The translations under genes were made by a program, and so were the position numbers. Of a stretch of DNA of 43,949 bases, positions 996 to 36,439 are shown one piece after another. Under the pieces are notes generated by a model. That model saw nothing but the letters and a program-made list of their open reading frames with translations. It ran no database searches and had not been told where the DNA came from. Every line of letters begins with the position of its first letter. The stretch's first letter is position 1. The stretch is from Verrucomicrobiota bacterium. Lineage in GTDB: Bacteria > Verrucomicrobiota > Verrucomicrobiia > Limisphaerales > SIBE01. The stretch is from assembly GCA_016871535.1 (NCBI GenBank), contig VHCZ01000021.1, positions 1 to 43,949 on the forward strand, in the 5' to 3' direction.

Positions 996-3900
996 TCACT
1001 CCTTCGGCAGCAACGATCCATCCGGCTGCGCCAGAAACGCGAGCAAGTCCGCGATGTCCTGCATCGAGAGTCCTTGCTCCAATCCGTCCGGCATGAGCGA
1101 TTTCCCGTCGGCGCGCAGCTCCTGGATCTGACTTCGCGGAATCGTTTCATCCGGCAAGCTTTGCCGCCGCAAAGTGACGCTGGCAGAAGTTTCAGCCACA
1201 AGCAGCCCGGTCACAGACTCTCCGCGCGAGGTCGTGACCGTGTAACTCAGAAAATCCGGCGTCACTTGCCGGCTCGGATCCAGGATATCAATGAGCACGG
1301 TCTCGGGCGGGCGGCTCGCGATTCCGGACAAGTCCGGGCCGATCTGTTTTCCGCGGCCTTGAATCGTGTGGCAAACAAAGCAGGTTTTGGCGAACACCTC
1401 CGCGCCGCGGCCCGCCTCCCGGTCGAGGGTCAGCGCCGGTTTGAACTTGCGCAAAACCTCTTCGCGATCGGCGGCGACGGTGCTTCGAAAAAGTTTCGTG
1501 GCGCGCATTCGTGCTTCGGCGTCGGGAACCTTTTGCAGCGACTGGCGCGCCGAAGCGTCCATTTCAATCGACGGAATCCGGTTTTGTTCGAGCGCATCGA
1601 GGAGAGCGACCGTGAGCGCAGGGGAACGCGATGCCACGTTCGCCAATTGCCGCCGCGTGCCTTGCGCATACTCCGCCCAGTTCGCGAAAATCCGAACCGC
1701 CAAGTCGGTGTCGGCCACTTTCACCAAAGCATGAATCGCGGCAGATTGGAGTTCCGAAGCCTGTCCGGGCCGCAGCCAATCGAGCGCGACGGCTCCAGCC
1801 TCCGGCGCGCGAGATTCAACCAGGACTCGAATGCCGGCCAGTCGCAGGCGTCGCCGTTCTGATTCTGATCTGACCAACCTCAGCGCACGTTCGAGGAAAG
1901 CCTGCGGAGAGTCCGCTGGAGTTCGGGCCGTTTGGCGCCGGCGCTCGATCCAATCGCGCAAAGAATGTCCGCGTTGTTCCAGTCCGTCTGCCATTCCCGC
2001 GAGAAACACGAGGCGAGCAGGCAGCGTCGCCTCGGAACCGGCCGCCATCGCCCAGGATAAGGACCTTTCCAGATCCTGGCCATCCGGGATCGATCCAATG
2101 AGGCGCGCGCACTTCTCGACAAAATAAACCGTGTCATCGTTCGGCAGCGTTTGCCAGGGTCTTTTACCGATCGTCCAATTCGCTCCGACCAATCGGGCGA
2201 AAAAGCCCCACGGCCGGGAATTCAAGCTGCTCAGAATCGCCAGGGTCTGCCAGCGATCTGCGACTCCTCGCCGAGCCAACTGCGCGAGCAAATTCTCTCT
2301 CTCTGCTGCGGCAAGTCCTCCGGCCGCCAAAGCGAGTTCAAGGCGGACTCGCGCATCGGCATCACCGGCCAGCCGGGTCACGCCTCTCTTGAGCTGCGCC
2401 GCGTTGGGCGAGTTTCCGAGGAACCGTTCACTGAGACGCACGGCGTGCTCCCGAATGCGCGGGTCCTTGTCGCGGAGCGCCGACAAAACCGTCCTTTCAT
2501 CAAGCGCGCCAAGGCCGTCGAGCGTCCACGTCGCGTGCAGACGAGCCAGTGGGATTGCGGATTGCGGATTGCGGATTGCGGATTGCGGATTGCGGATTGC
2601 GGATTTGAGGAGTGAGATGGCGGCGCGATCCTGGCGTTCGACCAGAAGCCGCTGCGCCGTATCGCGCCACCAGCCGTTTGGATGGCCCAGCCACTGGACG
2701 AGTTCGGCCGTCGAAGCGCCACTCAAAGTAGGACAGGCTTCCAGCCTGTCTGACTTTGTGGCCGCCGCTTTTCCTCCGGAAGTTTGCGTTGCTTTTCGCT
2801 TGATCCGCCAGATGCGCCCGTGCTCCGCTCCCGTCCGCCAGGGAATCCGTTTTTCGACGCTTGGGTTATGGACGTACTCCGGATGCTCCACAAACTGGCG
2901 GTAAAAATCGACGACGTAAAGCGCGCCGTCCGGTCCCGTGGCGAAGTTCACCGCGTGGAACCAGGGATCGCTCGAAGCCAGAAACTCCTTCCCTTCCTCA
3001 CCCCGGCGCGCCACGAAAGTCACCCCGTTCGGTTCCAGCACGCGGCGGTGGACGAGATTCCGCAGCGACTCCCCCATGAACGCATTGCCACAGTATTTTT
3101 CCCCGAGTGCGTCGCCGCGATAAATCGTCAACCCGGCCAGCGCGTTGAAATGACTGGATGACTCTTTGTTGAAGACCAGCGGCGGCGGCGTGAGCGGAAA
3201 CACACGGCCGGTGTCGGCCGGCGCGAGGATATCGAGCACGCCTTCGTCCGGCCGCAGTTGCGGATTGCGATTCAAGTAGCGCTCTTCGATGACGACGTGC
3301 CGGACCGGAATCGTGTTCCACGACAGAAAGTGGTTTCCCCAATCGTCCCGCGCCCGGCCAAATTGGCTTCGCCCCGCGATGACCTCGAATTCGCCGGTGT
3401 CGGGACGGAAGCGCAAATCATGGTTGCGCAGCGACACGCCTTTCGCGGCTGGCTCGTCCGGTCGGCGGATATCGCCATCGCTCCGGCCATTCGCGGCGTA
3501 AATCCAGTTGTCGATCCCCCAGGTGAGCCCGTTCACGCGCAACTGCTGGTTGCCTTCGCGAAACCCGGTGAGGATCACGCGGCGTTCGTCGGCTTTTCCA
3601 TCTCCATTGGTGTCTTTCAGGAACCAGATGTTCGGCGCAGACGTGACCAGGAGGCCGTCCTTCCAGGGCAGGACGCCGTTCGGAAAGGAAAGTCTGTCGG
3701 CAAAGACGGTGGCCTTTTCGTACTGGCCATCGCCGTCCAAATCTTCGAGCCGGCGAATCTGGCCCGTGCCCGGGCCCAGAGGATAGTCGATCATCTCCGC
3801 GACGAACAGGCGTCCGTCTGCGTCCCAGGCAATTGCCACGGGGCTGATCACGTTGGGTTCAGCGGCGACGAGCTCAACGGTCAGATTCGCATCCGCGAGG

Positions 3901-4031
3901 CAAAGGGTGGCGAGTTCGTCGGAGGGACTCAGCGGACGGCTTGCTTGACTCGCGGCCACCGCCGTCAGCCCGATGAGATAGAGCCACACTCCAAGCAAAG
4001 CGGGTTCTGCCCAGATTCCAATGACTAACAA
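996..4031 (-). CDS. PVC-type membrane-bound dehydrogenase with cytochrome c domain
   Basis: About 1011 residues if started at TTG 4031; GTG 3989 would give a shorter signal sequence. The N-terminus has a hydrophobic export segment ending near VAASQA. Residues about 40-400 match the PVC membrane-bound dehydrogenase (soluble glucose dehydrogenase-like propeller) pattern, with VAIAWDADGRLFVAEMIDYP and LDGDGQYEK. A HEAT-like helical middle follows. The C-terminus holds a haem site CFVCH at about residue 884 followed by IGPDLSGIA, as in the PVC haem-binding family. It probably oxidises a sugar or similar substrate in the periplasm; the substrate is unknown. Two foreign repeat tracts are translated in frame (about residues 427-435 and 476-494). 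The open frame extends to 4544, but that stretch is repeat DNA and is not included. Confidence 0.88.
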   Translation of the reverse strand: MLVIGIWAEPALLGVWLYLIGLTAVAASQASRPLSPSDELATLCLADANLTVELVAAEPNVISPVAIAWDADGRLFVAEMIDYPLGPGTGQIRRLEDLDGDGQYEKATVFADRLSFPNGVLPWKDGLLVTSAPNIWFLKDTNGDGKADERRVILTGFREGNQQLRVNGLTWGIDNWIYAANGRSDGDIRRPDEPAAKGVSLRNHDLRFRPDTGEFEVIAGRSQFGRARDDWGNHFLSWNTIPVRHVVIEERYLNRNPQLRPDEGVLDILAPADTGRVFPLTPPPLVFNKESSSHFNALAGLTIYRGDALGEKYCGNAFMGESLRNLVHRRVLEPNGVTFVARRGEEGKEFLASSDPWFHAVNFATGPDGALYVVDFYRQFVEHPEYVHNPSVEKRIPWRTGAEHGRIWRIKRKATQTSGGKAAATKSDRLEACPTLSGASTAELVQWLGHPNGWWRDTAQRLLVERQDRAAISLLKSAIRNPQSAIRNPQSAIPLARLHATWTLDGLGALDERTVLSALRDKDPRIREHAVRLSERFLGNSPNAAQLKRGVTRLAGDADARVRLELALAAGGLAAAERENLLAQLARRGVADRWQTLAILSSLNSRPWGFFARLVGANWTIGKRPWQTLPNDDTVYFVEKCARLIGSIPDGQDLERSLSWAMAAGSEATLPARLVFLAGMADGLEQRGHSLRDWIERRRQTARTPADSPQAFLERALRLVRSESERRRLRLAGIRVLVESRAPEAGAVALDWLRPGQASELQSAAIHALVKVADTDLAVRIFANWAEYAQGTRRQLANVASRSPALTVALLDALEQNRIPSIEMDASARQSLQKVPDAEARMRATKLFRSTVAADREEVLRKFKPALTLDREAGRGAEVFAKTCFVCHTIQGRGKQIGPDLSGIASRPPETVLIDILDPSRQVTPDFLSYTVTTSRGESVTGLLVAETSASVTLRRQSLPDETIPRSQIQELRADGKSLMPDGLEQGLSMQDIADLLAFLAQPDGSLLPKE
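2552..2606. repeat. 7-bp tandem array inside a coding region
   Basis: Seven complete copies of GGATTGC plus a partial eighth lie inside the PVC cytochrome gene. Because 7 is not a multiple of 3, the array is read through all three frames and encodes a repeating NPQSAIR heptapeptide on the minus strand. The coding frame is intact on both sides. A gain or loss of one unit would frameshift the gene, so this is a potential slippage (phase-variation-like) site. Confidence 0.9.
2726..2754. repeat. Short dispersed palindrome (ACAGGCT/AGCCTGT) inside a CDS
   Basis: The sequence AGGACAGGCTTCCAGCCTGT is a short hairpin: ACAGGCT pairs with AGCCTGT across a 3-base loop. A near-identical copy lies at 14629-14655 in the start of the FG-GAP gene. 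Here it is translated in frame in the minus-strand cytochrome gene, contributing residues around RLEACPTL in the linker between the propeller and the helical part. Confidence 0.8.
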
Positions 4032-4083
4032 CCTGGTTGTCGGGGAACCACTTTTCCACTCACTCCGGCCCTCTCCCTTATGG

Positions 4084-4248
4084 CCCTTAGAGCCTGCCTG
4101 AAAATTGTCTTCTGGGTGGAACAGGCCACCGGCCTGTTGCGGCGGGCTACCAGCCCGCCGGGCCTTTTGGCGGCAGGTTGCCGCCAAACACAGGCTGGTA
4201 GCCTGGCTGGTAGCCCGTTCCACCCATTTTTCAGACAGGCTCTTAGGG
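4084..4248. repeat. 165-bp palindromic element
   Basis: The outer arms at 4084-4104 and 4228-4248 are inverted copies (19 of 21 bases match) built on AGAGCCTG.CTGAAAA. Nested arms GGGTGGAAC/GTTCCACCC and CCGGCCTG/GCTACCAGCCCG-type palindromes lie inside. No reading frame is conserved in it. It is a MITE- or REP-like dispersed element sitting upstream of the PVC cytochrome gene. Confidence 0.75.
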
Positions 4249-4331
4249 AGAGGGAGCCTCGATCTAAGGATTTCGTGGGGTCGAGCGGCGCAGGTCGATC
4301 CTCGATCAGGATGGTCTGTTCCCTCCCCATA

Positions 4332-4413
4332 AACCTGACTCAACCGCGGATAACACGGATCACGCGGATAAGACCCTTCTCTATCTGCGAAATCCGCGGA
4401 ATCCGTGGTCAAA
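4332..4413. repeat. Dispersed CACGGAT-type repeat, copy 1
   Basis: A roughly 80-bp unit opening near AACCTGACTCAACCGCGGAT and closing with AATCCGTGGTCAAAG, rich in ACGGAT/ATCCGT steps. Related copies lie at 14080-14108 (partial), 29053-29135 and, inverted, 32081-32152 inside polA. The two ends are roughly inverted copies of each other (CACGGAT against ATCCGTGG). Confidence 0.8.
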
Positions 4414-4450
4414 GAATCTGTTCGGGGGGTCAATATGCGAGCTTCGATCG

Positions 4451-4490
4451 GAGAATTCTCCCCCTGAGAGAGAGGGCCAGGGTGAGGGGG
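4451..4490. repeat. Dispersed CTCTCCC/GGGAGAG-type repeat
   Basis: A purine/pyrimidine-skewed unit ending GGGCCAGGGTGAGGGGG. It resembles the pieces at 32004-32046 and 32219-32262 inside polA, there in inverted or related orientation. It belongs to the same low-complexity palindromic set that recurs across the window. Confidence 0.6.
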
Positions 4491-4628
4491 AACGCGGTAA
4501 CACAGTCGTTGGAGGCCGTCTGGCATAGTGTGGCGCAAGATCACAGGTCGCGGACTCTCGTCAAGGCTGGAGAGTGTTAGACTGCGAACGAGGCATCCAA
4601 AGTTTATCAGCGTCGGTGGTTCGCCGAT

Positions 4629-7117: not shown

Positions 7118-7131
7118 ACATCAAGCATCCA

Positions 7132-7214
7132 GGTAGGGCGAGCCTGTCCCCAGCGAGCCGATCCGGACGTGTTCCAAGCCCGTGGAGCGGCTCGCCGGGA
7201 CGGCTGGCCCTACC
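7132..7214. repeat. Palindromic repeat family E, copy 1
   Basis: GGTAGGGCGAGCCTGTCCCC at the left pairs with CGGGACGGCTGGCCCTACC at the right, and CGAGCCG/CGGCTCG stems lie between. Further copies are at about 28771-28856, 28918-29003 and 29859-29941. It lies immediately upstream of the permease start. Confidence 0.85.
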
Positions 7215-7296
7215 TTGAACCCGACGGTAGGGCTGCGTTCCCGCGCAGCCGCGTTTTTGACGATGCGGCGGCGCAGCAGCGCCGTCTGTGTTAGCC

Positions 7297-28758: not shown

Positions 28759-28874
28759 CCATGAACCTGACGGTAGGGCGAGCCTGTCCCCAGCGAGCCG
28801 GGTCGGACGTGTTCCACGCACGTCGAGCGGCTCGCCGGGACGGACTCGCCCTACCAGCGACGGGTTCATGGGCT
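28759..28874. repeat. Palindromic repeat family E, copy 2
   Basis: The core GGTAGGGCGAGCCTGTCCCC...CGGGACGGACTCGCCCTACC lies at about 28771-28856. The outer arms CCATGAACC/GGTTCATGG extend the palindrome. Confidence 0.85.
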
Positions 28875-28905: not shown

Positions 28906-29012
28906 CCATGAACCTGACGGTAGGGCGAGCCTGTCCCCAGCGAGCCGAGTCGGACGTGTTCCACGCACGTCGAGCGGCTCGCCGGGACGGACTCGCCCTA
29001 CCGGGTTCATGG
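28906..29012. repeat. Palindromic repeat family E, copy 3
   Basis: Nearly identical to copy 2 and in the same orientation, so the two make a direct repeat of palindromes about 147 bp apart. The intervening text (around CCAAGGGAACTTCCCATGAA) is repeated again after copy 3. Confidence 0.85.
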
Positions 29013-29856: not shown

Positions 29857-29942
29857 GGTAGGGCGAGCCTGTCCCCAGCGAGCCGCCTCCAGCGCTCCCA
29901 CACGTCGGACACGGCTCGCCGGGACGGACTCGCCCTACCGTG
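29857..29942. repeat. Palindromic repeat family E, copy 4
   Basis: GGTAGGGCGAGCCTGTCCCC opens it and CGGGACGGACTCGCCCTACC closes it, as in copies 1-3, with a variant middle. It lies about 80 bp downstream of the polA stop. Confidence 0.85.
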
Positions 29943-30024: not shown

Positions 30025-33000
30025 TTAGTGCGCTTCCAGCCAATTCTTCCCCAGGCCTATTTCGACCGCGATCGGCACCTCCAGCGGAATCGCGGTTCCC
30101 ATGCCTTCCTCGATCAGGGCTCGGACTTGTTGTTCCTCCGGTTTGAACAAGTCGAAGATGAGTTCGTCGTGAACCTGGAGCAGCATGCGTGTCGTCAGTC
30201 CGCGCCGCGTCAATTCCCGATGGATCTGGACCATCGCGATCTTGATCATATCCGCGGCGCTGCCCTGGATCGGGGCATTGATCGCGTTGCGCTCGGCGCC
30301 GCCGCGAACGGTCGCGTTCGACGACCGGACATCCCGCAGGTACCGGCGCCGCCCGGCGACCGTTTGCACGAAACCCTGTTCGCGCGCAAACGCGATCGTG
30401 TCCGACATGTATTTCCGGATGCCGGGAAACTGATGGAAGTATTGCTCGATGATCGCGGCCGCTTCCTGGCGTGCGATGCCCAGGCGCTGCGCCAGGCCGA
30501 AGGCGGAGATGCCGTAGATGATGCCGAAGTTCACCATCTTCGCCTTGCGCCGCATTTCCGCGTTCACCTGGTCGAGCGGCACGCCATAAACTTTCGCCGC
30601 CGTCGCCGTGTGAATGTCGTGGCCGCTGCGGAAGGCTTCGATCATCGCGGTGTCCCGGCTGAGCGCGGCGATGATGCGCAACTCGATCTGCGAATAATCG
30701 GCGGAGAGCAAAAGATGATTCTCGTCGCGCGGCACGAAAGCCTTCCGGATTTCCTGTCCCAGTTCGGTGCGGATCGGAATGTTTTGGAGATTCGGGTTTT
30801 GCGATTGCAGCCGGCCAGTCGCGGTCGCGGCCTGTTGGTAAGTCGTGTGGACGCGGCCCGTTTTCGGAAAGATCGCCGTGGGCAACGTATCCGCGTAGGT
30901 TGATTTCAATTTCGTCATCGCCCGGTATTCGAGGATGCGCGGGACGATTTCGTGTTCGCCCGCCAGCGCCAGCAGCGTCTGTTCGTCGGTGGCGTACTGG
31001 CCGGTCCGCGTCTTTTTGGGTTTCGCGGCGATCTTGAGACCGTCGAAGAGAATTTCCCCAAGCTGCTTGGGAGAATTCAAATTGAATTCGGTTCGCGCCA
31101 GGCGGTAGATCGCTTTCTCGCCCGCGTTGATCTCCTTGGACAACTGGTCGGCGAATTCGCCCAGGACCGCGGCATCCAGGCGGACGCCTTCGCATTCCAT
31201 GGCCACCAGCACGGGCAAGAGCGGCGACTCGATTTCGTAAAACACGCGTTCCTGGCCCTTCTCTCTCAGCAACGGGGCCAGGACCGCGCGCAATTGCCAG
31301 GCGATGTCTGCGCCTTCGGTGGCGTAATCGGTCAATTGATCGAGCGGGACATGGCTCAAGCTGAGTTGCTCGGCTTCTCTCCCCCTGAACGGCCCCCTCT
31401 CCCGTCCTACGGACACCCTCTCCCCCTCCGAGGGGGAGAGGGGGCCGTTCAGGGGTTCAATGGGCGAAGTCGGTCGGAGAATTCCCTCTCCGATCAGTTT
31501 GGTGACGGGCACCGGACTGTAGCCCAGATAAACCTCGGCCAGATAATCCAGCGCGTGCCGCATGTCCGGCTCAATCAAGCTGTGCGCGAGCATCGTGTCG
31601 AACAGCTTCCCGCGCGCGGTCACGCCGCGCCATTGGAGAAGACTCAACTCGAACTTCAGATTGTGGCCGACTTTCTCGATCCGGTCGCTCTCGAACAGCG
31701 CGCGGAATTCTTCGAGGATTGCGCGCGCTTCAATTTCGTCCTGCGGCACGAGGACGAAATAACCGCTGCGCGGCGCGAAAGAAAAAGCGATCCCGATCCA
31801 CTGCGCCTCTTTCGGGTCGAAGCTGGTCGTTTCGGCGCTGAAGCAAAAGGACGGCTGATTGCCGAGCGTTTGAATGAGTTTCGCGCGCTCTTCTCGAGTG
31901 CGGATCAACTGATATTCATGCGGAACGTCGGCGATGGTTTTGAGGTTCGAGGCGCTGGGCGCTGGGCGTTGGGCTTCAGCCTCGTGGACAGGGCCGCTCC
32001 CTTCCCCCTCACCCTGGCCCTCTCCTTCAGGGAGAGGATTTTCCGAAACGCTTCGCACATTGGATCCTTGAACAGACTTGTTAACCACGGATTTCGCGGA
32101 TGGAGAAGCGGTTTTATCCGTGTAATCCCTGGTTGAATCAGGTTCGTGGGGAGGGGAGGATTGATCCTGCGTTGGAGCAAATCGAGTTGCCCTGGCTTTA
32201 CCAGAGCGTGGCGACAGACTCTCCCTCCCTCTCTCTCCACGGGAGAGGGCCGAGGTGAGGGTAAACAGGTCGCCAGTTTCCCCCACATCGACAAGCTTTG
32301 GCGGAATGCCTCCGGCTTTCGTCTGTGATTCACCCGCGAAACCGCGACCGGCTTTGAATTCGTCCCCAAGCAACCGGCGTCCGATGGAATTGAACTCGAA
32401 CTCGACGAAAAGACTCTTGAGCCTGGCTGCGTCCCATTCCCGCCGTTGGAGCGCGTCGAGGTCGATCGCGAGCGGGACGGCGCAATCGATTGTGGCCAGG
32501 CGTTTCGAGAGGAGTGCCTGGTCGCGATTCGCCTCGAGCGATTCCTTCAGCTTGCCTTTCAACTCCGCGGTGTGCGCGAGCAGATTTTCCACGCTGCCGT
32601 ATTCCGAGATCAATTTGCCGGCGGTTTTTTCGCCGATGCCGGGCACGCCCGGAATGTTGTCCGTCGCGTCGCCCCACAGCCCGAGAATGTCGATGACCTG
32701 GCGGGTTTCCTTGATGCCCCATTTGCCGAGAATCTCGGCCACGCCCAGAATTTCGATGCCGTCGCCCTGGCGCGAGGGTTTGTAGAGGAAAGTTTTGGGG
32801 GTCACCAATTGCCCGAAATCTTTGTCCGGCGTGACCATGTAGGATTCGAAGTCCTCCTGTTCCGCGCGGCGCACGAGCGTGCCGATGACGTCGTCCGCTT
32901 CGTAGCCGTCGAGGGCGATCACGGGGATGTTGAACGCTTCGATCATGCGGCGCACGTGGGGAAGCGCCTGGCTCAGGTCTTCCGGCATGGCTTCGCGCTG

Positions 33001-33311: not shown

Positions 33312-33581
33312 TACTGATCAGACCGTGGGATAGAATACACTTTGCCAGGAGGGATTTTGGCCAGCCGCGAGGAGCGCGTGAGGCGGTGTATCCCTGCGAT
33401 CCACAACGAGCGAGCGACGAAGCGGCTGGCCAAAAGACCCCTGGCCCTGCGGGTTGCGCCGCATTTGGGCTCTGGCTTCGTTGCTCCTCAGTCGAAGATC
33501 CACCAGGGATATTCTCCTTCGTCGCGCCTGAGCCCAAATGCAACGCAACAAAGTGTATTCTATCCCACGGTCTGATCAGTA
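33312..33581. mobile_element. 270-bp MITE-like element with perfect 33-bp inverted ends
   Basis: 33312-33344 and 33549-33581 are exact inverted copies (TACTGATCAGACCGTGGGAT...). Two nested palindromes lie inside: TTTTGGCCAGCCGC (33355-33368) with 33422-33435, and GCATTTGGGCTC (33461-33472) with 33530-33541. The outermost TA on both sides fits the TA target duplication of IS630/Tc1-mariner-type elements. No transposase frame is present; the open frames inside read like non-coding text. It occupies most of the gap upstream of the polA start. Confidence 0.85.
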
Positions 33582-34600: not shown

Positions 34601-36439
34601 ATGGACGACATTTTGAAGTGTTACCAAATCATCGGTGTTCAGTCGGGAACTTCTCCCAAGGCGCTCAAGAAGGCTTATCGCGATCTGGTGAAACGCTGGC
34701 ATCCGGATCGTTTTCCGGACGATTCCAACGCGCGAAAGGAAGCGGAGGAAAAGCTCAAAGCCATCAATCTGGCCTTCGAACGCATCCAGGATCACCGCGA
34801 AACTCTCATTGCGCTCGCCGCCCGAAAGTCCGGGGCAGCCGACCGCGCGCCAGGCCCGCGCGCGGCCTCCACACCACCGCGCCCCCCGCCGAGGCCCAGA
34901 CCGCAGGCGGAACCCAAGCCGCCTCCGGCATCGACAAACAAACCGCCGAGAACGCAAGCGGCATCGAGCCCCTCGGCCAAACCAAAATCAGCCTCACGGA
35001 AGGATTCCCACGCGAACTGGTTTGTGGGCCGGTTTCGTCCGGTCTCGATTGCGGCCGGCTGCGCCATTCTTCTCGCTGCCACGGCGGTGATTTTTTTGTC
35101 CGGAGGACGGAACGAAGATTCCTTTGACGCGGTCAGCGATGCCGAGCCGATGGCGCCCTTGTCGCAAATCGAGTTTCGCCGCAGCGCCGCGGCTCAAGCT
35201 CCGGATCGAACAGCGTTGTCTGGAGTGGGTGAAGTTCCGGATTCTTCGCGATTGTTGTTGCGCGAGGAGAGGGCCGACGGAAGCCCGACGCCGCCTGTTG
35301 CCGCGTTGGACTCTCCAAACTCGCAAACGGACCGCCGCAGTTCGTCTGCGCACACCAATCCGTTGCCGATGCGGATTGATGCTGTGGGACCAACGGCTGA
35401 TCGCTCGCGCCCTGAATCTCAGCCGTTCGCTGCCGACCGCAGTGCGGCGGCCGAATCGCTGCCTGCGGACGCCACCGTTTCGCCACTCCTCAGCGGCTCA
35501 CTGAAAGCGAAACTCATCGCGAAGGCCGAGGCCCCACGCCCGCTTCCCCCGAAGTTCGAGGAAACTCCCGAAGGCCGTTTCCGCTCCGCATTACGCTTGG
35601 CGCAGAGCGAAGGCGGAGCGCGGGATTACGCCGAGGCCGCGCGGTTGTATCGGCTCGCTGCGGAAGCGGGTCACGCGGAGGCGCAGAAGAATCTGGGTTT
35701 CCTTTACGTCGAGGGCAAGGGCGTGCCGCAGGATTCCGTCGAAGCCGAGAAATGGTTCAACAAAGCCGCGGCCCAAGGAATCGCCGGCGCCCAATTCGCC
35801 AGTGCGCTTCTGGCCCATGCGCAGGCGAATTCTTCGAAAGCCGCCGCGCCTCGCGAAGCGCTCCTGCGGCCTGCTGCCCTCTCCACGAACGGCCCCCTCT
35901 CCCTGTCCCTCTTCCCCTCGGAGGGGGAGAGGGCGTCCGGAGGACGGGAGAGGGGGCCCTTCAAAGAGACAATGCGCGAAGACCTTCGGAGGGCTATCCC
36001 CCAGGATGGGCCGCGTTCGCCGCTCCTGAAAGGTTTGGGCCGCTCAAATTCCCCGCAGCCGAGTCCGAAGGATTCTCCGCCGTTCCGGAGTTCCGAACCT
36101 GCAGACCCAGCCGCGCAATACGAACTGGGCCTCCGATGCGAAAAGGGCGACGGACTGAAGCCAGACTTTGCCGCCGCGGCGAAGTGGTATCGCCTGGCCG
36201 CTGATGCCGGACACTCCGCCGCGCAAAAGAAACTGGGCGACCTCTATGCATCCGGCCAAGGCGTCGCCCAGGACTTCAACGAAGCCCGGAAGTGGTATGA
36301 CAAAGCGGCCGCGAGCGGACTGGCTGGAGCCGGTCTGCGGAGAGTCTCGTCCGGCGCGGCCCAAACCGACGGACCCATCGAATCTCCGGACTCGGTCAGA
36401 TCGGATCCGCGAGAGAACCCGGACGCGAAGAAGAACTGA
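34601..36439 (+). CDS. J-domain, single-span, Sel1-repeat protein
   Basis: 612 residues. Residues 1-66 form a DnaJ domain with the HPD motif (KRWHPDRFPDD). A Pro-rich segment leads to one membrane span (VSIAAGCAILLAATAVIFLS, about 147-167). The exterior or periplasmic part has a low-complexity stretch and two Sel1 blocks: AARLYRLAAEAGHAEAQKNL with YVEGKGVPQD (about 345-385), and AAKWYRLAADAGHSAAQKKL with YASGQGVAQD (about 525-565). The J-domain should stimulate a DnaK-type chaperone on the cytoplasmic face. A palindromic repeat (35887-35962) is translated as residues about 429-455 between the two Sel1 blocks. The following gene is seven bases downstream. Confidence 0.8.
   Translation: MDDILKCYQIIGVQSGTSPKALKKAYRDLVKRWHPDRFPDDSNARKEAEEKLKAINLAFERIQDHRETLIALAARKSGAADRAPGPRAASTPPRPPPRPRPQAEPKPPPASTNKPPRTQAASSPSAKPKSASRKDSHANWFVGRFRPVSIAAGCAILLAATAVIFLSGGRNEDSFDAVSDAEPMAPLSQIEFRRSAAAQAPDRTALSGVGEVPDSSRLLLREERADGSPTPPVAALDSPNSQTDRRSSSAHTNPLPMRIDAVGPTADRSRPESQPFAADRSAAAESLPADATVSPLLSGSLKAKLIAKAEAPRPLPPKFEETPEGRFRSALRLAQSEGGARDYAEAARLYRLAAEAGHAEAQKNLGFLYVEGKGVPQDSVEAEKWFNKAAAQGIAGAQFASALLAHAQANSSKAAAPREALLRPAALSTNGPLSLSLFPSEGERASGGRERGPFKETMREDLRRAIPQDGPRSPLLKGLGRSNSPQPSPKDSPPFRSSEPADPAAQYELGLRCEKGDGLKPDFAAAAKWYRLAADAGHSAAQKKLGDLYASGQGVAQDFNEARKWYDKAAASGLAGAGLRRVSSGAAQTDGPIESPDSVRSDPRENPDAKKN
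35887..35962. repeat. Palindromic repeat family D inside the J-domain gene
   Basis: GAACGGCCCCCTCTCCC (35887-35903) is inverted at 35946-35962 with one mismatch. It is the same family as 31382-31455 in polA but lies in a plus-strand gene. It encodes NGPLSLSLFPSEGERASGGR and the following residues in frame. Confidence 0.88.

Follow-up and report, generated by a model that had tools for sequence, protein, structure and literature searches.

In-frame palindromic repeats within DNA polymerase I of a Verrucomicrobiota bacterium

The polA locus

The window analysed here is the whole of contig 21 (43,949 nt) of G000, its source genome, a 6.67-Mb draft in 460 contigs; G001 and G002 are two congeners, that is, genomes of the same genus. 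The relatives of its polA place this uncultured bacterium in the Verrucomicrobiota, close to Limisphaerales/Pedosphaera. The only polA copy of G000 is a single uninterrupted frame in the window, in the domain order 5'-3' exonuclease, repeat-filled linker, degenerate 3'-5' exonuclease and polymerase domain (Table 1). The original prediction had taken the encoded protein, at about 1068 residues, to be overlong, and so it is: in an alignment of 21 polA proteins from G000 and 20 relatives of the same order (two congeners and 18 non-congeners), 17 of the 18 non-congeners have 917–969 residues and the remaining one 1005, while the congeners have 1017 and 1003. Insertion points were mapped in this alignment against relatives lacking the tracts, and the relatives do not all have the same linker. 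The excess of G000 corresponds to the D element (residues 583–617), the CACGGAT element (about 360–398) and a pair of CTCTCCC elements (323–334 and 398–409); sequence and translation confirm that the predicted repeats lie where they had been placed and all keep the polymerase frame. The heptamer array, to which part of the excess had likewise been ascribed, aligns without gaps to G001 and so adds no length, and is ruled out as an insertion.

Between polA and an AraC-type gene lies a 270-nt imperfect inverted repeat (33312–33581; 50-nt arms, 84% complementary), whose end k-mer occurs 13 times in the 844-kb sample described below and which probably belongs to another MITE-like family.

Table 1. 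Features of polA and of related repeats, in window positions
Feature	Position	Strand	Basis or distribution
polA, DNA polymerase I, 1068 aa	30025..33231	minus	Pfam PF02739, PF01367, PF01612, PF00476; single copy
Linker, aa 297–427, predicted disordered; carries CTCTCCC pair and CACGGAT element	31951..32343	minus	pLDDT <50; 21-protein alignment
First CTCTCCC element (PIT/TM), read TLTSALSRGER	32230..32262	minus	common to both congeners
CACGGAT element with connector, ~117 nt (39 aa)	32038..32154	minus	absent from G001 and G002
Second CTCTCCC element (PIT/TM), read PLPEGEGQGEG, inverted relative to the first	32004..32046	minus	common to both congeners
Heptamer-like tract	31952..31974	minus	equal length in G001
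3'-5' exonuclease active-site residues, aa 465–467, 528, 640	~31310–31840	minus	degenerate in G000 and G001, intact in G002
Complete D element, 105 nt = 35 aa (583–617)	31381..31485	minus	absent from 20/20 relatives; DNA junctions
D outer palindrome, arm 1, 22 nt, 100% complementary	31382..31403	minus	inverted-repeat search
D outer palindrome, arm 2, 22 nt	31434..31455	minus	inverted-repeat search
D connector module, common to CACGGAT element	31449..31485	minus	element-end comparison
D copy in frame in DnaJ/Sel1-repeat gene (34601–36439)	35873..35991	plus	G002 lacks ~aa 427–466
CACGGAT-connector-PIT composite, probably non-coding, order as in polA, more divergent	4328..4492	plus	repeat comparison

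A degenerate proofreading domain

Purifying selection acts on polA, with dN/dS between G000 and G001 of 0.072 in the 5' exonuclease, 0.248 in the 3'-5' exonuclease and 0.082 in the polymerase domain, and the active site of the 3'-5' exonuclease is degenerate. Its motifs were placed by means of the Klenow fragment residues D355/E357, D424 and D501, which we take to be their counterparts; in G002 they are intact (DxE, D, D), whereas G000 has SxE, E and G, and G001 has GxE, D and G. Catalytic residues have been lost repeatedly across the order, in several relatives without the D insertion, G001 among them; loss of the proofreading residues thus preceded the arrival of D or took place independently of it. 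In the AlphaFold model of the G000 protein, pLDDT falls below 50 only at 297–427 and 585–619, i.e., at the repeat tracts. Judged by model and alignment, the inserts occupy a flexible linker and a domain under relaxed selection, and the original description of insertions in an essential gene therefore overstates the burden.

Insertions in the linker and in the exonuclease domain

The linker between the exonuclease domains varies in length across the order (20 relatives aligned). G000, G001 and G002 all carry the inverted CTCTCCC pair in it, read as LTP.LSP.. and PLP.GEG.GEG, and a degenerate CTCTCCC-like motif is found in the same linker of a more distant relative, G030. The CACGGAT element of G000 directly precedes and abuts the second CTCTCCC element, while in G001, which has no CACGGAT element in polA, a D core overlaps the first. 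As simple hairpins, the two CTCTCCC copies in G000 polA are no more stable than shuffled sequence, with z-scores of −1.1 and −0.3.

In the 3'-5' exonuclease domain, the 74-nt palindrome predicted at 31382–31455 is indeed present, but the insertion is longer, since the connector belongs to it. Its predicted peptide, GILRPTSPIEPLNGPLSPSEGERVSVGRERGPFRG, is placed after LIGE in a loop of the domain, with junction peptides around LIGEGILRPTSPIEPLNGPLSPSEGER, and is specific to G000 among the 21 aligned proteins; within the domain, it is solely at 585–619 that the model has a pLDDT below 50. The DNA of D folds with a z-score of −5.6, and dozens of copies are spread across the G000 genome. The sequence CTCTCC/GGAGAG is found at each end of the polA copy, an ambiguous situation for which the simplest alignment has one substitution and zero duplication.

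Shared ends and nested modules

The CTCTCCC type resembles TM sequences almost base for base (Table 1 of PMC4666352), and the PIT/TM pattern, CCCTCTCCC-loop-GGGAGAGGG-NNN-GGGTGAGGG, is found in the second polA element (PIT) of G000, G001 and G002, the polA copies of G000 being slightly degraded relative to the motif. On its base sequence, we identify the type as the known PIT/TM intrastrand-triplex motif. D copies consist of a PIT-containing core bounded by the ends CCCTCCCCACGAAC and GTTCGTGGGGAGGG, and the CACGGAT element has the left end of D and a right end, GTTCAGGGGTTCAATGTGCGAAG...GGAGAATTC, which also closes a subset of D copies, that of polA among them. In the 844-kb sample, a D or CACGGAT core adjoins 12 of the 13 connector modules, each time on one and the same side, while on the opposite side three modules adjoin a PIT at a nearly equal offset; CACGGAT-connector-CTCTCCC is a recurring composite. 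Given these shared termini, nested cores and the recurring composite, the repeats are modules of one related set, and not unrelated as had first been supposed. At 4328–4544, the start of the open reading frame 996–4544 overlaps such a CACGGAT-PIT composite, and the true start is probably further downstream.

The same CACGGAT-PIT junction is found in polA and L123, a PSCyt gene, with GGAAAATCC or GGAGAATTC followed by TCTCCCTGA, and G001 has a bare PIT at both of the orthologous places, as does G002 at that in polA. This common junction, coupled with the PIT-only state in G001, is the best evidence, from comparison of the genomes, for insertion into PITs, and that state (for polA, in G002 too) makes it less likely that a preformed composite moved into either gene.

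Repeats inside other genes

We surveyed 844 kb of G000 (the window and 800 kb of further stretches), counting a copy as internal if it lay inside a predicted gene and had 25 or more codons of that gene to either side. Genes were called with a home-made codon-pair model, which gave 605 genes and 84% coding sequence, six genes only being backed by homologues. As the original prediction required of a general process, the repeats do occur inside other coding sequences: 43 of the 216 copies of six repeat families are internal and in frame, in 25 of the 605 predicted genes. Since 84% of the sample is coding, genes hold far fewer copies than their share, a strong depletion of the kind that the purging of most insertions would produce. 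The families differ (D 7/16, PIT 13/41, CACGGAT 5/21, GTAG_c 12/38, GTAG_a 3/47, GTAG_b 3/53), with D, PIT and GTAG_c together internal in 32/95 cases versus 6/100 for GTAG_a and GTAG_b (Fisher p 1e-6). Within genes, four strand/phase combinations occur for D and four for PIT, so that neither uses a single coding frame; CACGGAT gives the same peptide in 5/5 gene copies, and few of its frames are open.

Empty sites in relatives were found for five genes besides polA. These are a TPR/glycosyltransferase gene (L137), with a 64-residue insertion where relatives are empty with abutting matches; an FAD-linked oxidase gene (L133, 14576–17902, minus strand), with an in-frame block of about 134 residues, missing in relatives, that combines a PIT with a GTAG REP dimer and a D; an acyltransferase/AMP-binding gene (L120), with a PIT pair of about 60 residues that, among those compared, only G001 also has; L123, where the empty site is recognised by homology; and the DnaJ/Sel1-repeat gene of the window.

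Further repeats were recorded in the course of the survey. Inverted GTAG_c pairs lie in frame inside predicted genes at L143 9865–10009, L145 5716–5800 (a Mur ligase/MurB fusion), L117 430–513, L127 11986–12070 and L133 3722–3803, and GTAG-tagged REP dimers occur in the window at 7119–7215, 28759–28857, 28906–29004 and 29857–29941, a type that is represented 47 times in the sample and lies almost entirely between genes. PIT-like motifs (at most two mismatches), counted in 58 genomes, vary widely within the order, some genomes having 0 and others up to about 880, and are highest in G002, counts that serve as a rough guide because the motif is nearly mirror-symmetric and the backward-pattern control is thus not independent.

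Origin of the inserts

Precise in-frame insertions, empty sites in relatives, many genomic copies, shared termini and a nested order are directly seen. We are confident, on these grounds, that each tract is a small palindromic mobile element of a non-autonomous, REP/MITE-like type, and that such elements entered polA and many further genes but persisted only where they were harmless. From the three genomes we infer an order of events in polA: the inverted PIT/TM pair would have entered the linker in the ancestor of the genus, the CACGGAT element would later have entered the second PIT at its CTCTCCC arm, and D would have inserted at a native CTCTCC of the exonuclease domain once the loss of catalytic residues had begun. 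To survive, an insert would have to keep an open frame, have a net length divisible by three and sit at a flexible or relaxed site; those in polymerase I are probably near-neutral passengers. At some sites, loss in the relatives may have occurred instead of gain in G000. A further proposal, to which we give slightly less than an even chance, is that PIT/TM copies act as landing pads in genes, with elements ending in CCCTCCCCACGAAC inserting site-specifically at the CTCTCCC arm, so that one tolerated in-frame insertion seeds more of them at that point, lengthening the protein in nested fashion.

For the mover, the usual guess would be either an IS that acts in trans or a REP-associated tyrosine transposase. 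Y1 transposase (Y1_Tnp) genes have 13 matches in G000 and 23 in G002, and at the loci examined in these two genomes PIT, D or CACGGAT copies do not regularly lie alongside; only C89 of G002 has PIT and D on both sides, at least 280 bases away. We have therefore rejected a RAYT as mobiliser in the manner of a REPIN/RAYT system, since the Y1_Tnp loci are not consistently flanked by the same repeats. Comparison of junctions with relatives proved neither a target-site duplication, at the polA D or elsewhere, nor an excision, and no parental transposon was found for D or CACGGAT. The argument for transposition thus runs through copy number, shared ends and empty sites.

That no transposase is linked to the repeats would also suit a process in which existing CTCTCCC repeats are copied among one another through gene conversion, template switching or recombination, and in which no transposase takes part. 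The first PIT of G001 polA, which a D core seems to have overwritten or replaced by conversion, fits this as well, and PIT/TM motifs have been tied to genome instability in E. coli (PMC4666352). We nonetheless consider it rather unlikely, as D and CACGGAT insertions are full-length with identical ends at unrelated loci, and the D insertion of L137 sits where relatives show nothing similar.

Selection for the inserts, through peptides or DNA structures that modify polymerase I, seems to us very improbable. The idea has precedent in the mutator effect speculated for REP-tagged repair genes, many intragenic REPs lying in DNA repair genes (Di Nocera et al. 2013, PMC3733652), and the degenerate exonuclease motif of the G000 polymerase would suit it; against this, the catalytic residues are also gone in G001 and in several relatives without D, the genes with in-frame repeats in G000 form a functionally mixed set, and D and PIT, read in several frames, give different peptides. 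Hardly credible, finally, is the notion that ordinary variable linkers or assembly artefacts resemble repeats by chance: the linker does vary in length at this position across the order and G000 is a draft of many contigs, but related element pairs recur in three separately assembled congeners, close matches to the polA elements are found elsewhere in G000, and one insertion lies, in the structure model, inside a folded domain.

If the tracts are mobile palindromes, as we believe, polA is a clear ordered example, with a genus-shared step followed by one in a single genome, of selfish palindromes lengthening proteins, and one far from Rickettsia. A target rule, insertion at the CTCTCCC arm, is suggested, and database peptides like PLPEGEGQGEG or LTPALSPGERG may be either true insertions or false gene starts.

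Comparison with known systems

Like MITEs, the elements of G000 are short, multicopy and palindromic, with the terminal inverted repeats described above; unlike MITEs, they have yielded neither a parental transposon nor a clear target-site duplication in G000. PIT/TM motifs of E. coli MG1655 also occur in inverted pairs and are reported to be always intergenic (Holder et al. 2015, PMC4666352). The CTCTCCC type of G000 is likewise paired and inverted and matches in sequence, its triplex potential being predicted from the motif, but 13 of its 41 sample copies are inside predicted genes, which places the motif in predicted protein genes.

The closest precedent within the phylum is that of the GTAG/CGTC REPs, which, alone or as dimers, encode 20–30 residues or more when intragenic, are most numerous as intragenic GTAG REPs in Opitutus terrae (Verrucomicrobiota) and include DNA polymerase I among the proteins they decorate (Di Nocera et al. 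2013, PMC3733652). The novelty within this lineage that had been expected of the polA repeats is thus forestalled, as repeats inside genes, phylum and target are all shared. The difference is that PIT, D and CACGGAT in polA have no GTAG/CGTC tag at the stem-loop end; G000 has GTAG elements too, in three types, of which two lie mostly between genes.

Rickettsia palindromic elements (RPEs) are about 100–150 nt long and are inserted into unrelated genes without disturbing the frame, the orthologues lacking them (review PMC10969869). A comparable process had been proposed for polA, and the proposal stands as regards in-frame palindromes, empty sites in relatives and the number of genes, polA and five others having such insertions absent from orthologues. 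It does not stand as regards a single coding frame: a strict one-frame design is unsupported for D and PIT with their four strand/phase combinations each, although the five CACGGAT copies in genes give one peptide. The likeness, in a lineage of the Verrucomicrobiota, is thus one of mode of action, and by this analogy we regard it as supported that the polA elements work like an RPE, without claiming that they are RPEs. In-frame palindromic insertions are already known from Rickettsia and, as REPs, from many bacteria; what our sequence comparison suggests to be new is a differing set of elements, in which triplex motifs are read in frame and a motif already in place takes up nested insertions at one constant position.
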